Origin: Chthoniobacteraceae bacterium
GTDB taxonomy: Bacteria > Verrucomicrobiota > Verrucomicrobiia > Chthoniobacterales > Chthoniobacteraceae
Reading direction: 5' to 3'
Assembly (NCBI GenBank): GCA_947471505.1
Contig: CANIWM010000054.1
Coordinates: 1 to 45,632 of the forward strand
Length of the DNA: 45,632 nucleotides
A program made the position numbers and the translations under genes. Of the stretch, positions 31,278-44,232 are shown in pieces. Under the pieces are notes generated by a model. The model had not been told where the DNA came from and made no database searches. It saw nothing but the letters and a program-made list of their open reading frames with translations. Each line of letters starts with the position of its first letter. Position 1 is the stretch's first letter.

Positions 31278-31425
31278 CAAGTCACCATTCGCGGATTCGC
31301 GGGCGGAGGGGAAGAATGATGTTTTTCCAAGTTGAGAGCGACTGTTTGGCGACCCTGGCCTTTTTGCCTCCATCGATGCAGAGGCTTTCCATTCGTTTCA
31401 TTCGATGTGTAAGGTGACGATTCTT

Positions 31426-32685
31426 ATGGCCAAACAATCTTCCGTCACCAAAGCCTACGACCTCGCCCGCGAACGCTACGCCGCGCTCGGCGTCGATACC
31501 GAGGCCGCGCTCAAAGCAGCACGCACTCTGAGCATCTCGCTGCATTGCTGGCAGGGCGATGACGTCGGCGGGTTTGAAAATGCAGGACAGGCGCTCAGCG
31601 GCGGTATCGCAGTGACGGGCAACTACCCCGGCAAAGCCCGCACGCCCGACGAACTCCGCGCCGACCTCGACAAAGCGCTCTCGCTCATCCCCGGCAAACA
31701 CCGGTTGAATCTCCACGCGTTCTACGGCGAATTCGGTGGCAAGAAAGTGGAACGCGACGCCATCGAGATGGACCATTTTTCCAACTGGGTCGCGTGGGCG
31801 CACGAAAACGGAATGGGCCTCGATTTCAACCCGACCTGCTTTGCCCACCCGAAAGCCGCTGATGGATTCACCCTCTCGCACCGCGACAAGGGCATCCGCA
31901 ATTTCTGGATCGAACACTGCCGCCGCTCCCGCGAAATCGGCGCGGCGATGGGCAAAGCGCTCGGCTCGCCGACCGTCACAAACGTGTGGGTCCCCGATGG
32001 CTACAAAGACACGCCCGCCGACCGCCTCGCCCCGCGCGAGCGACTCGCCGATTCGCTCGACGCCGTTTTCAAAAAACCGCTGAAGCACAACTACGACGCC
32101 GTGGAGCCAAAGCTCTTCGGAATCGGCAGCGAAAGCTACGTCGTCGGCTCGCACGAATTTTACCTCGGCTACGCCATCTCGCGGCAAAAAGTATTCTGCC
32201 TCGACGCCGGTCATTTCCACCCCACCGAGGGCATCGCGGATAAAATCAGCAGCGTATTCCAATACGTCCCGCGCGTCCTGCTCCACGTCAGCCGCGGCGT
32301 GCGTTGGGACAGCGACCACGTCGTCACGCTCACCGACGACCTCCAGCAAATCGCGCAAGAACTCGTGCGCGGAAAATACCTCCCGCGCACGCACCTCGGC
32401 CTCGATTATTTCGACGCCAGCATCAACCGCATCGCCGCCTGGGTCATCGGCACCCGCAACTTCCTAAAAGCCCTGCTCATCGCCATGCTGGAGCCCATCG
32501 ACAAACTCCGCTCCGCCGAAAACACCGGCGACCTCACCACGCGCCTCGCGCTGCAAGAAGAGGCGAAAACGATGCCGTTCGGCGCAGTGTGGGACGCCCT
32601 CTGCGAGCGGCAGAATGTGCCCGTCGGCGAGAAGTGGCTGGCGGAGGTGAAGGAGTACGAGGCGAAGGTGCTTTCGAACCGCTAA
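31426..32685 (+). CDS. rhaA: L-rhamnose isomerase
   Basis: A 419-residue sugar isomerase converting L-rhamnose to L-rhamnulose, the first step of rhamnose breakdown. It follows the E. coli RhaA order closely: [97 protein letters not shown] and [22 protein letters not shown]. The start is the ATG at 31426; an upstream ATG-equivalent at 31405 is unlikely. Its stop codon TAA lies within the left inverted repeat of the GxxExxY element. rhaB and rhaD are not in the window. Confidence 0.97.
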
Positions 32686-33293
32686 TCTTCACTAATCTGC
32701 GCTAATGATTTCCATTGCTGCCGCCGAAGATTAGCGCCAATAAGCGCAGATTAGTGGTTCCAAATTGAGAGTATGTATAAAGACGAAGGCTACAAATTCA
32801 TGGGTGCGGCGTTCGAGGTTTACAATGTGCAGGGACACGGACTCGCGGAAGAAATCTATCAGGAAAGTCTGGAACTCGAACTGGAAATGCGCGCCATTGG
32901 ATTCCGAGGGAAACAAGAACTGGCTTGCTTCTACAAAGGTCGTGAATTGAAAAAGCGATACATTCCTGATCTGTTCGTTTGCGGATGCCTCCTTGTGGAA
33001 CTCAAGTCCGTGAGCAAGCTTTTGCCGGAGCACGATTCTCAACTCTTCAACTACATGCGAATCACGAAACAGCCCGTAGGATACCTCGTGAATTTCGGCC
33101 ACAAAGACACGCTGGAATGGAAGCGGTTTATTCTGTCTGAATACGGGGCGTGAACCACTAATCTGCGCTAATCTTCACTAATGTCGCTTACTCCAACTCA
33201 ACTCGTAAAGCATGAGCCAACAGCACGAATCGACGGTGCATCATTTTGCGTCCGCAATCCGAAAATTAGCGCCGATAAGCGCAGATTAGCGGT
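32678..33293 (+). mobile_element. GxxExxY gene element bounded by inverted repeats
   Basis: A 616-bp unit with perfect 10-bp terminal inverted repeats, ACCGCTAATC at 32678-32687 and GATTAGCGGT at 33284-33293. Each end also forms a larger imperfect hairpin: CTAATCTGCGCTAAT-type arms occur around 32690 and 32735-32757 on the left, and around 33152-33180 and 33265-33293 on the right. The GxxExxY gene lies between. The unit fills the whole gap: its left end holds the rhaA stop codon and its right end abuts the ATG of the ABC ATPase. GxxExxY genes are often multicopy and repeat-associated, which fits a mobile unit. Confidence 0.75.
32773..33153 (+). CDS. GxxExxY protein
   Basis: A 126-residue protein of the GxxExxY family, named for its motif seen here as GLAEEIYQ. 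The downstream ELACFYKGRELKKRYIPDLFVC and LLVELKSVSKLLPEHDSQ carry the D...ExK pattern of PD-(D/E)XK nuclease folds, which suggests a nuclease, but no activity has been assigned that I can name. Families of near-identical copies in Verrucomicrobia and Lentisphaerae are known. It lies inside the repeat-bounded unit. Confidence 0.9.
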   Translation: MYKDEGYKFMGAAFEVYNVQGHGLAEEIYQESLELELEMRAIGFRGKQELACFYKGRELKKRYIPDLFVCGCLLVELKSVSKLLPEHDSQLFNYMRITKQPVGYLVNFGHKDTLEWKRFILSEYGA

Positions 33294-34790
33294 ATGAAAA
33301 CACCCATTCTCCAACTCTCAGCGGTTAAAAAATCCTTCGGCGCGGTCCGCGCCTTGAAGGGCGTTTCATTCGATCTTCATGCGGGTGAAGTCCATGCGCT
33401 GCTCGGCGAAAATGGCGCGGGGAAATCGACGCTCATCAAAGTCATCACCGGCGCGCACCAACCGGATGGCGGGACGCTGACGGTCGGTGGTGAAACGGTT
33501 TCCGGCCTCACCCCGTCCAAGACCCGCGAGCTCGGCATCGCCTGCATTTACCAGCAGCCCGCGCTTTTTCCCGATCTCACCGTGGCGGAAAACATCGGTC
33601 TGCGGCTCAAGAAATCCGGCGCGTTTTTGCGGGTGAAATGGGCGGAGCAGCGCACGCTCGCGGCAGATCTTCTGAAGCGCATCGGCGCGGAAATTTTGCC
33701 GGATGCGGAAGTCCGCTCGCTCTCGATGCCCGAGCAGCAGCTCGTCGAAATCGCGTGCGCGCTCGGCACCGGCGCGCGCATCGTCATCATGGACGAGCCC
33801 ACGGCTTCGCTCACGCAGAAGGAGCAGCATCTCCTTTTTGCCGTCGTAAAAAGCCTCCGCGAAAGCGGTGTCGGCGTCGTGTATATCTCGCACCGCATGG
33901 AGGAGATCTTCGCGCTCGCCGACCGCGTCACCGTCCTCCGCGATGGCGAGAGCGTCGGCACGCATCCGACTGCAAACATGACCGAAGCCGAGCTCATAAA
34001 GCTCATGGTCGGGCGCGAAGTCTCTCACATTTATCCTGCCGCTGACGGCACACCGGGCGATGTCGTGCTCTCGTTGAAAAGCGTCGGCTCGCGCGCTGGC
34101 GGAGTTCGCGACGTGAGCCTCGATGTCCGTGCTGGCGAAATCGTCGGACTCGCCGGCCTCGTCGGCGCGGGCCGCACGGAACTCGCGCGCATCCTTTTCG
34201 GAATCACGCCTGCCGACTCCGGTGAAATCGCGCTCAACGGCCAGCGCATCAGCATCGGCAGCCCGCGCGAAGCCATCGCGCACGGCATCGCCTACGTCCC
34301 CGAGGATCGCCGCCGCCACGGCGTCATCCTCGAAATGCCCATCGCTCACAATATGACGATGGCCATTCACCCGACCTTCTTTCCCAGCTCACTTCTGCGC
34401 ACCGGCGCAGAGTCCGAGCTTGCGCAGCAATTCATCCGCGACCTCGGCATCAAAGCCTACGGGCCCGAAGCGCCCGGCGGCTCGCTCAGCGGCGGCAACC
34501 AGCAAAAAGTCAGCGTCGCCCGATGGCTCGCGACCAAGCCGAAACTCCTCATCCTCGACGAACCCACGCAAGGCGTGGATGTCGGCGCAAAATCCGAGAT
34601 TCACAAAATCATCCGCGCACTCGCGAAGGACGGACTCGCAGTGCTTATGATCTCCAGCGATTTGCCCGAAGCTCTCGGCATGAGCGACCGTATCGCCGTC
34701 ATGCGCGGCGGCACCATCGCGGCAATCCTACCCGGCGGCAGCGACGCGCATACCGTGATGGCGGCTGCGCTTGGGAACGCGGCAGCGTAA
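33294..34790 (+). CDS. Sugar ABC transporter ATP-binding protein (two ATPase domains)
   Basis: A 498-residue carbohydrate ABC ATPase of the RbsA/MglA/rhamnose type with two ATPase modules. Module 1 has Walker A GENGAGKSTLIKVI and Walker B IVIMDEPTASL. Module 2 has the degenerate Walker A GLVGAGRTELARIL, signature LSGGNQQKVSVARWL and Walker B LILDEPTQGVD. It powers import of a monosaccharide. Being next to rhaA suggests rhamnose. No permease or binding protein gene is present before the convergent gene at 34791, so its partners must be elsewhere. Its stop codon is directly adjacent to the end of that gene. Confidence 0.9.
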   Translation: MKTPILQLSAVKKSFGAVRALKGVSFDLHAGEVHALLGENGAGKSTLIKVITGAHQPDGGTLTVGGETVSGLTPSKTRELGIACIYQQPALFPDLTVAENIGLRLKKSGAFLRVKWAEQRTLAADLLKRIGAEILPDAEVRSLSMPEQQLVEIACALGTGARIVIMDEPTASLTQKEQHLLFAVVKSLRESGVGVVYISHRMEEIFALADRVTVLRDGESVGTHPTANMTEAELIKLMVGREVSHIYPAADGTPGDVVLSLKSVGSRAGGVRDVSLDVRAGEIVGLAGLVGAGRTELARILFGITPADSGEIALNGQRISIGSPREAIAHGIAYVPEDRRRHGVILEMPIAHNMTMAIHPTFFPSSLLRTGAESELAQQFIRDLGIKAYGPEAPGGSLSGGNQQKVSVARWLATKPKLLILDEPTQGVDVGAKSEIHKIIRALAKDGLAVLMISSDLPEALGMSDRIAVMRGGTIAAILPGGSDAHTVMAAALGNAAA

Positions 34791-42303: not shown

Positions 42304-42309
42304 GCGTTA

Positions 42310-42478
42310 AACCCGAACGGCGCGAATGGAACCGCAGATGAACGCAAATCTTCGCAGATATTGTTGTTCGCAAATGCTCTGAGGCGACGGACATTTCTCA
42401 TCCGCACCAAAATTTCCAACTCCCGCTTATCTGCGTTGATTTGCGCCTATCTGCGGTTTCAAAAGCGGCGTTCGGGTT
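42310..42478. mobile_element. Palindromic non-coding element (MITE-like)
   Basis: A 169-bp unit with a 10-bp terminal inverted repeat, AACCCGAACG at 42310-42319 and CGTTCGGGTT at 42469-42478. Inside are further imperfect arms: ACCGCAGATGAACGCAAATC around 42331-42350 and the complement of ACCGCAGATAGGCGCAAATC around 42437-42456. It fills the whole gap between coaX and the convergent DUF1552 gene, and its right end carries part of the DUF1552 stop codon. It has no reading frame and resembles the ends of the GxxExxY element (CGCAGAT/AATCTGCG words). Confidence 0.72.
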
Positions 42479-43808
42479 AAACCAACCCCGTCAGCGTGCC
42501 CGTCGCATCCTGGAATTTCTCCGCCGGCACGCCCATCTTCTGCACCACCGTCAGCAGCACATTGGAAAGCGGAGGATGCTTATCCGCATCATGCGCCAAG
42601 TGCTGCCCGTGCTTCAGCCCCCACGCCCCGCCGCCCGCTACGAGGAGCGGGAGATTCTTCGGCGAATGGTCGCCCTTCTCCCCGCTATTCATGCCCGAGC
42701 CATAGACGACCATCGTGTGGTCCAGCATCGTGCGCCCGCCTTCCTCCGTGCTTTGTAAAAAGGACAAAAACCGCCCGAGTCGCGAGAGGTGAAAGCGGTC
42801 GATCTCCCCGAGCTTTTTCAGCATCCCCGCGTCGCCACCATGATGCGAAAGCTCGTGGTGATTCTCCCCGCCGCCGCCATATCCGCCCGCCTCGCGCGAC
42901 CACTCGAACGTGATCACCCGCGTCGTATCCGTGATGAACGCGAGGTAGCTCAACTCCAGCATCACATCCACCCACATCGGGCGGTCGTGGCCGTCGCCGG
43001 GCTTGCTGGTGAGCTGGAGGCCCGCCGAATCGGGCTTCGACTTTGGCACATCGATCCACGCCACCTGCCGCTGCACGCGCAGCTCCGTCTCGCGCACGGA
43101 GGCGAGGTATTCGCCCAGCTTCCCTTGGTCCGTCTTGCCGAGCTTCCGCTCCAGCGCCTTCGCCTCGCCGAGCACGTCGTCGAGGATGCTGCGCTTCTCC
43201 GCAAACCGCCGCAGCGTCGCCTCCCGCGAGTTGGCATCATCCGGCACAAACAGACGCTCGAACAACCTCTGCGGGCTGTTCTCCGCAGGCAGCGGCGTCC
43301 CATTTCTATCGAAAGCCAGCGTGTGCGAATGCCCCGCCGCGCCCGTCCCCGAGCCATCGGAAATCTCCAGCGATGGGAACCGCGTCTGCGCCCCGATCTT
43401 CTCCGCGATCACCTGGTCCGCCGAAATCGTATTCGTATAATCCTTCCCCGGCACCCCGCGCAGATTCGCCCCCGTCAGCCAAGTATCCGCGCCCGAATGC
43501 CCGCCCGTCGCCGCCGGATGCCCCAGCCCCGTGAGCACGGAAAAATTCGCCTGATGCTCCTTCAGCGCCGCGAGGGTAGGGGACAGCTCATACCCCGCGC
43601 CCTTCGCCGCCGGCATCCATTCGAGGATATTCACCCCATTCGGCACATAGCAGAAAATGGCACGTGGCGTCGGCTTCGTCCCCGATTTCCCCAGCGGCTG
43701 ATAAGTCGAAGGAGCCCCCATCGCCTCCAGCAGCGGAAGCGAGAGACAAGCGCCAATGCCACGCAAAACAGCGCGGCGCGAAAGTGGTGTGCGAGCGAGG
43801 ATGTTCAT
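42477..43808 (-). CDS. DUF1552 family protein
   Basis: A 443-residue protein of the planctomycete/verrucomicrobial DUF1552 family. The start (MNILARTPLSRRAVLRGIGACLSLP in outline) has a twin-arginine-like RRAVLRGIG and a hydrophobic stretch, so it is exported. Characteristic blocks are PRAIFCYVPNGVNILEW, TGLGHPAATGGHSGADTWLTG, DTTRVITFEWSREAGGYG and DHTMVVYGSGMNSG. The function of DUF1552 proteins is unknown; related ones are often next to DUF1588/1592 cytochrome-like genes. No such partner lies in this window. Confidence 0.9.
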   Translation of the reverse strand: MNILARTPLSRRAVLRGIGACLSLPLLEAMGAPSTYQPLGKSGTKPTPRAIFCYVPNGVNILEWMPAAKGAGYELSPTLAALKEHQANFSVLTGLGHPAATGGHSGADTWLTGANLRGVPGKDYTNTISADQVIAEKIGAQTRFPSLEISDGSGTGAAGHSHTLAFDRNGTPLPAENSPQRLFERLFVPDDANSREATLRRFAEKRSILDDVLGEAKALERKLGKTDQGKLGEYLASVRETELRVQRQVAWIDVPKSKPDSAGLQLTSKPGDGHDRPMWVDVMLELSYLAFITDTTRVITFEWSREAGGYGGGGENHHELSHHGGDAGMLKKLGEIDRFHLSRLGRFLSFLQSTEEGGRTMLDHTMVVYGSGMNSGEKGDHSPKNLPLLVAGGGAWGLKHGQHLAHDADKHPPLSNVLLTVVQKMGVPAEKFQDATGTLTGLV

Positions 43809-44232
43809 GCGAGGGATAAAGCCACCGCGCCCCCATGTCTTCGAGCCTTTCTTTACCGGGATGAAAAGATTGCGATTTTGGGTTTGACCTTAAACGCGGA
43901 CGTAATATCCACGCCCTTATGCGCATCGTCCTCGCGATTACGACACCAGCCACCGCACGCCACCTCGGAGCGCTGGAGCGTCGAGACGCGAAAGTAGTCA
44001 GCGGCTTCAGCCGGAACGACGCAGTGCGCGGAAGGCGGGTGGAACTCGCGAAGTGCCTAGATGAAAAATCTACGGATCAAAAAAGCGCGGGTTGTTGTCC
44101 GCAGATTGCGCAGATGACGCAGATTTCCGCACAGCCGATTGCGAGCACAGCGCGTTCACTCGGCACTACGGCTCGCCGACTAAAGACTACTTTTATCATA
44201 CCGCTCCAAACGTATGGGAAGCCCAGCCCGGT
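43809..44232. other. Intergenic stretch, no gene supported
   Basis: About 420 bp between the DUF1552 start and the third array. Open frames here do not resemble known proteins. One starting at 43919 (MRIVLAITTPATARHL) has a flavoprotein-like beginning but turns into repeat-derived sequence, and I do not call it. At about 44095-44128 there is a CGCAGATTGCGCAGATGA-type word series like the arms of the elements at 42310 and 32678, probably an old fragment of the same kind. Confidence 0.5.

Follow-up and report, generated by a model that had tools for sequence, protein, structure and literature searches.

A GxxExxY gene between inverted short-period arrays looks like a swappable single-gene cassette at bacterial gene junctions

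The cassette between rhaA and an ABC-transporter gene

The window analysed here is a stretch of 45,632 nucleotides (contig CANIWM010000054.1) from a Chthoniobacteraceae bacterium. On its forward strand, the L-rhamnose isomerase gene rhaA (31405–32685) and the gene of a sugar ABC-transporter ATP-binding protein (33294–34790) are separated by a cassette of 616 bp (32678–33293, forward strand), which diverges from the related genome G006 inside these bounds. Its ends are perfect 10-bp terminal inverted repeats, ACCGCTAATC at 32678–32687 and GATTAGCGGT at 33284–33293, and looser inverted arms extend over 40 nt (83%). The cassette contains four arrays rather than two, with one hairpin on each side of a GxxExxY gene, and in each array an ACC precedes three cores (CGCTAAT type), which are about 7 nt long and spaced 10 bp apart. 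The outer left array (32678–32706, forward) carries the cores CGCTAAT, CACTAAT and CGCTAAT behind its ACC, about 10 bp apart, and holds the rhaA stop codon (TAA, 32683–32685); the inner left array (32730–32758, reverse) is its inverted partner in the left hairpin. The GxxExxY gene (32773–33153, forward) encodes 126 amino acids. The inner right array (33154–33182, forward) starts immediately 3′ of its stop codon, and the inverted outer right array (33265–33293, reverse) ends just 5′ of the downstream ATG, the A of which is nucleotide 33294. Folded as single-stranded DNA, the left hairpin is strong (z = −4.2; 0 of 200 shuffles equal or better), whereas the right hairpin is only modest, since at z = −2.0 it was equalled or bettered by 7 of 200 shuffles. 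No Rfam structured RNA matched 32500–33500 at E up to 1. A preliminary description of this DNA had proposed a unit with perfect 10-bp ends and a hairpin at either end, inserted between two co-directional genes so that it includes the rhaA stop codon and abuts the next ATG. The sequence and the folding bear out the unit and its placement, with the stated difference in hairpin strength, and relatives show a short gap in place of the unit.

The GxxExxY protein

The encoded protein belongs to the GxxExxY family (TIGR04256, E = 4e-34, 117.5 bits against a curated cut-off of 35) and matches PF13366, PDDEXK_3, equally clearly (3.6e-34, 118.1 bits; curated cut-off 22). Across 31 aligned sequences Gly23, Glu26, Tyr29, Asp66, Glu76, Lys78 and Tyr94 are invariant and Gln90 is nearly so; in 12 more diverse sequences Gly23, Glu26, Asp66, Glu76 and Lys78 are also held, and Tyr29 nearly. 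A nuclease-like D…ExK pattern had been recognized beforehand, and it stands: Asp66 and Glu76-x-Lys78 are intact in the window protein and the fold matches are of the PD-(D/E)XK type. A Q-x-x-x-Y sequence following ExK is the motif of the Cas4/RecB-type branch of these nucleases. The structure model (pLDDT 93.9) lies closest to SSO0001, which we take to be a Cas4 (Foldseek E = 2.8e-4; VIA Z = 8.7, r.m.s.d. 4.9 over 100 aligned residues, a Z that may mean little beyond a common arrangement), followed by the lambda and LHK exonucleases; no solved homologue was found by sequence. The window protein models as a PD-(D/E)XK nuclease, possibly of the Cas4/RecB type. It has the fold and the probable active-site residues in common with Cas4/RecB-type nucleases and differs from them in being a single domain of 126 residues and the sole gene of its unit.

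Several familiar explanations were rejected. A known RNA, a known defence protein and phage carriage each failed to give a match: no PADLOC defence profile was hit at E up to 1, and no phage carriage of GxxExxY was found. PHROGs yielded two weak matches, one at E = 0.0015 to an endonuclease and one at E = 0.18 to a Holliday junction resolvase. Plasmid carriage was likewise set aside, with matches in 6 of 72,556 records, each below 60% identity. One of these, from Bacteroides, has clear arrays (score 22.5), and the other five score 10.5–12.

Inverted arrays at other GxxExxY loci

GxxExxY genes were present in 163 of the 288 genomes searched within the phylum of the window, Verrucomicrobiota, and inverted arms accompany them as a class. 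In a first set of relatives the arms outscored every shuffle at 67 of 75 units. Among units with full flanks, sampled as the loci of high-scoring matches together with copies chosen by hand from the listing rather than by random draw, arms were found at 106 of 134, the other 28 falling below the threshold, against 8 of 506 ordinary open reading frames (100–350 amino acids, drawn from eleven genomes). Of 137 units, 119 had an arm score above 12 and 109 a score of at least 15. The best repeat period was 8–10 bp in 205 of 218 arms. Co-directionality of the neighbouring genes was only mildly enriched (81/119 versus 73/128).

The two arms of a unit also agree with each other. The comparison used 96 units whose arms have three cores each (101 were called; L127, L183, L186, L208 and L211 were removed by hand before the arm-consensus, Mantel and core-change analyses, and the core of L175 was called out of register). 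The left-arm consensus equals the right-arm consensus in 81% of them, against 4.8% after shuffling. Between the two arms, identity is 0.94 for cores and 0.63 for linkers, as opposed to 0.33 for permuted linkers; because arms were chosen by similarity, these agreement figures are raised. The general core is C-R-C/G-N-R-A-G/T, with positions 1 and 2 partly imposed by a caller that takes only 7-mers beginning with C[AG].

The preliminary description had named a lack of other copies with the same ends as a finding that would refute it, and the sharing of ends which this implies is not supported by the loci of this genome. Five loci of the genome exceed the cut-off, one of them a fused double domain, and the flanks of all five carry inverted repeats, each of a different sequence; no second copy with the ends of the window unit was found. 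The arrays are of short period at four loci and have a longer repeated unit at contig C66. This last locus (G000:C66:32508–33269; L012, L015) encodes two fused GxxExxY domains in one frame of 310 amino acids, and the longer unit of its flanking inverted repeats is CTCTGCGGTCTTCCAATCTC.

Correspondence between core and protein

Between genomes and phyla alike, the arrays are matched to the clade of the GxxExxY protein. Once pairs that have a neighbour gene in common are set aside, protein identity correlates with core distance (Mantel r −0.331; the lowest permuted value was −0.082). Core mismatches drop from 3.3 of 7 positions at less than 35% protein identity to 0.3 at 75–90%. The correspondence is not exact to the letter: when the closest protein relative located at a different junction is taken, its core is identical in only 25 of 96 cases, and the mean core distance to it is 1.6 compared with 2.9 at random. 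Mapped onto the protein tree, core type shows 54 changes (shuffled minimum 74), and positions 5–7 change 31 times versus 53. The clade of the window was found at 32 loci of named genomes from Verrucomicrobiota and Planctomycetota, of which L166 and L167 repeat the loci of G007 and G006. Both sides carry tandem CRCTNAY cores at 21 of these loci and one side does at five, whereas none of 3000 random places had them on both sides; the rest have CRCAGAT (three), CRCTTAA (one) or no core of the four types that were counted (two). Since the core changes together in all copies and on both sides, recognition of the core by the protein would be the simplest explanation. Co-inheritance of gene and array without binding could also yield the correlation.

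A second array-bounded family

Genes of the four-helix-bundle family TIGR02436, present in 43 of 57 relatives, resemble GxxExxY units in being small and lying between inverted short-period arrays. They differ in that the protein is unrelated to GxxExxY and the repeat period is another one. Inverted arms were found at 28 of 32 loci (C104:16182, C17:80857 and C35:9647 of the own genome, L154–L156, together with L345–L373), and 47 of 56 arms had a best period of 7 bp. The array layout is therefore not unique to the nuclease, and these findings argue that arrays are a general device and that the period goes with the protein. DUF559, considered as a third such family, had 9 of 13 matches inside open frames longer than 900 amino acids.

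The arms at 28 of 32 TIGR02436 loci, together with the existence of array hairpins without a gene, would fit an account in which some other machinery produces or spreads the arrays and several kinds of small gene, GxxExxY and TIGR02436 among them, merely ride along. We consider this improbable: the period depends on the protein family, at 8–10 bp for GxxExxY and 7 bp for TIGR02436, and the core follows the nuclease clade. TIGR02436 genes may represent a sister class of cassette. A wider proposal, tentative and in our estimate less likely than not, is that short-period inverted arrays mark a general, hitherto undescribed class of bacterial single-gene cassette founded by two or more unrelated proteins. 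In it GxxExxY would read arrays of 9–10 bp and TIGR02436 arrays of 7 bp, each protein would recognize a tandem core able to switch in step on both sides, and cassettes would compete for the same inter-gene sites across phyla. Any link of the TIGR02436 arrays with the heptanucleotide repeats of cyanobacteria is speculation.

Occupied, empty and replaced junctions

Empty sites in relatives, which the preliminary description had suggested looking for, were found within the genus at pheS–pheT and gltB–gltD and in family relatives at rhaA–ABC (pheS, pheT, gltB, gltD, ureB and ureC were assigned by eye from protein ends and not by family search). At rhaA–ABC the window, G006 and G007 each carry a unit. 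The family also includes six relatives (L078, L079, L080, L082, L083 and L084) with a gap of 32–76 bases there, and a seventh (L081) with 240 bases lacking the GxxExxY gene. The pheS–pheT junction holds a unit in G001, G007 and G004 and is empty in G005 and G003; gltB–gltD holds one in G000, G006 and G007 and none in G005 and G009, where the probes are separated by an 88-base gap that contains a small hairpin of another kind. Two of these pairs, G005 versus G001 at pheS–pheT and G005 versus G000 at gltB–gltD, have flanks of 93–97% identity. No target-site duplication was visible by eye at either junction, in comparisons across species in which a short duplication could escape. Filled-site flanks are similar nearly to the array edge, with the last ~26 bases of rhaA and the first downstream codons differing more.

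Recurring units were found in 18 real junction clusters, a nineteenth (L188/L188b, one locus) being excluded as false. The occupant of a junction is also replaced: gltB–gltD hosts two GxxExxY clades merely 36–47% identical, and rhaA–ABC hosts both CGCTAAT and CGCAGAT units. The rhaA–ABC junctions of G009, G005 and G001 (L076, L077, L085) contain other small open reading frames, in which no arrays were noticed, and this junction may be a general hot spot. The pheS–pheT junctions of G000 and G006 (L303, L304) carry another insert of about 790 bp with small reading frames, one nucleotidyltransferase-like by eye.

Exchange between genomes

Conservation of the arrangement in distant species had been named beforehand as a finding that would speak against insertion. 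In part it was found, in that a unit behind rhaA recurs in other families (L157, L158); the conflict between trees shows that simple inheritance is not the cause. The closest relative of the window protein, at L157 2501–2869, also lies behind rhaA, has a stop codon near its C-terminus and is followed by a different downstream gene. RhaA groups the window with G006 and G009 (99/99*), and the last of these has neither a GxxExxY match in its genome nor a unit at rhaA–ABC. The GxxExxY data reject a group of the window and G006 (p-AU 0.004) and place G006 with L075 and L175 (100/99*), a group that the RhaA data reject (p-AU 0.014); the groups {window, L157} and {L074, L075, L175} were defined after identities had been seen. 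Strict vertical inheritance at rhaA is thus rejected and, judged from sequence, the units at rhaA–ABC in sister genomes descend from different lineages. A single clade of all six rhaA-junction units is not rejected by the GxxExxY data (p-AU 0.207), so a family that is exchanged and yet bound to this junction is possible. For GxxExxY units, both presence or absence at one site in close relatives and horizontal exchange are therefore observed.

Divergence within the unit points in the same direction. In 30 of 33 same-neighbour pairs, picked by hand from the junction clusters, GxxExxY exceeds every measured flank in synonymous divergence, as in L011–L097 (pS 0.77 against 0.21 and 0.09); for L014–L074 the upstream flank alone was used, the downstream gene having been read in the wrong frame, and other flanks may share this fault. 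The three exceptions are L181–L182, L190–L192 and L199–L200. For L181–L182 the synonymous divergence of GxxExxY (0.10) is lower than that of the flanks (0.40 and 0.46), and the near-identical tract runs past the unit on both sides, which fits a recent exchange by recombination. Hypermutation of a stationary gene, with replacement only apparent, would explain why many pairs combine saturation at synonymous sites with flanks that are young. It is mostly rejected and to us highly improbable: the GxxExxY and RhaA trees conflict, the L181–L182 unit is younger than its flanks, and the core type switches on both sides at once.

The best of the 73 same-genome pairs among the fetched units is 70% identical, so there is no sign in this set of multiplication inside a genome. 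The near-identical same-genome copies of an insertion sequence are absent among these pairs, and an ordinary multi-copy transposon is disfavoured both by the lack of recent copies among the fetched units and by the ends that differ between own-genome loci.

The GxxExxY protein is conserved although its synonymous sites are saturated, and copies are few per genome, with none alike among those fetched. Both observations, as well as arrays that hold the stop codon of a neighbour, abut start and stop codons and can fold into hairpins, would suit a nuclease or regulator serving the host, with arrays acting as operators or mRNA-processing sites that tune an operon or gene and exchange reduced to ordinary horizontal transfer by recombination. 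We regard such a role as rather unlikely, given that the same junction is occupied by different lineages and cores in sister genomes while other relatives have no unit, and that the PADLOC defence families offer no match.

Gene-less arrays

Arrays also occur without a gene. The own genome contains five array pairs in 400 kb, and resampled sequence none. In 400 kb drawn from five genomes without GxxExxY there are 0 solo pairs, and in 400 kb from five with it there are four, one of which resembles GC-rich chance sequence, a contrast that rests on nine pairs. G009, despite having no GxxExxY match, still has several CGCAGATT array matches.

In the window, a gene-less hairpin at 42327–42461 with CGCAGAT and CGCAAAT cores lies within a larger MITE-like inverted repeat (42306–42483; GTTAAACCCGAACGGC…), relatives of which, at 87–89%, are dispersed in G006. 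A lone CGCAGATT array is found at 44099–44130. The pair scan detected no inverted partner for it, and many contigs of G000, G006, G007 and G009 carry arrays like it. On contigs C90, C113, C11 and C25 of G000 (L002–L006), CTAATCTGCG-type hairpins lie within another MITE-like repeat with ends resembling TAGGGAAACGCTGATTAAAT. MITEs are short, dispersed hairpin elements without a gene; the gene-less array hairpins are likewise short and dispersed, whereas the GxxExxY unit carries a gene and its core varies between units.

Known systems and a possible mechanism

REPtrons are described as a tnpA-REP/RAYT gene with cognate REP palindromes, the gene having a copy number nearer that of a housekeeping gene than of a transposase (PMC8266576, PMC3733652). 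GxxExxY units are similar: each is a low-copy chromosomal gene flanked by palindromic repeats specific to the gene, with related repeats elsewhere in the genome, and GxxExxY arrays, like REPs, are specific to the clade of the adjacent gene. REPtrons have a HUH tyrosine transposase and palindromes tagged GTAG or CGTC, and GxxExxY units have a PD-(D/E)XK nuclease and arrays of ACC plus CRCNNAN with neither tag at the ends. The GxxExxY ends are moreover three tandem cores of about 7 nt in place of one GTAG-tagged palindrome, and the units are exchanged at fixed gene junctions. Without a HUH transposase gene or a GTAG/CGTC tag, the unit is not a REPtron by descent, although it follows a similar logic.

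A REPtron-like mobility is nevertheless the main rival of the homing-like reading. The nuclease would cut the arrays, as folded single strands or duplex, and the cassette and solo hairpins would move to new intergenic places. An array form common to units and solo hairpins is consistent with this, as are the solo-pair counts (none in 400 kb without GxxExxY, four in 400 kb with it and five in 400 kb of the own genome) and the parting of filled alleles from one another near the array edges. We think it unlikely on balance, for several observations run against it: no same-genome pair among the 73 fetched exceeds 70%, no target duplication was seen by eye at pheS–pheT or gltB–gltD, one of the four solo pairs resembles GC-rich chance sequence, some solo hairpins sit in other MITE-like repeats, G009 has several array matches with no GxxExxY match, and the L181–L182 tract reaches past the arrays.

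Free-standing homing endonuclease genes are single intergenic nuclease genes that spread horizontally and are present or absent in close relatives. GxxExxY, too, is a lone intergenic nuclease gene, horizontal and patchy among close relatives; it differs in that inverted arrays which correspond to the protein delimit its unit, and cutting of an empty allele is here a conjecture. Homing alone does not account for arrays that track the protein. Our best reading, which we put at about an even chance, is that the unit belongs to a widespread, homing-like class of single-gene cassettes exchanged at gene junctions, with a nuclease matched to the array ends; spread between genomes instead of multiplication inside one is part of that reading and is included in its even weighting. 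The nuclease would bind the core repeats that go with its clade and cut at or beside the array or junction. The cut would provoke repair, and host recombination would copy the cassette into the matching junction of a recipient, as in homing, so that a junction may gain a cassette, lose it or trade it for one of another lineage. We infer binding and cutting, and cutting as the driver of exchange, from this pattern; against it, the arrays could be inherited with the gene and yet be unbound by it. The earlier suggestion that the protein acts in its own movement thus stands as far as the arrays are matched to the protein and the unit is exchanged between genomes, with the catalytic step a presumed one.

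Significance

In the literature searched, which took in few subscription journals and no bioRxiv preprints and so gives an absence little weight, GxxExxY was mentioned in two papers, a single time in each and not in connection with its function, and PDDEXK_3 was not mentioned. For six array strings the sole match was a fish eDNA paper, and the family names and TIGR numbers gave nothing relevant among the matches listed, which were swamped by an unrelated abbreviation. GxxExxY is thus a common protein family whose role we found nowhere described in the literature searched, and its unit looks like a swappable single-gene cassette of a class undescribed there. Should every member prove to have a repeat code of its own that can be read, the family would provide a natural set of paired nucleases and DNAs from which to learn how a nuclease of 126 residues chooses its site. 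Such a code could also account for the short-period repeats dispersed in these genomes, and one small protein with a 30-nt DNA would then suffice for a direct test of a new kind of gene exchange.
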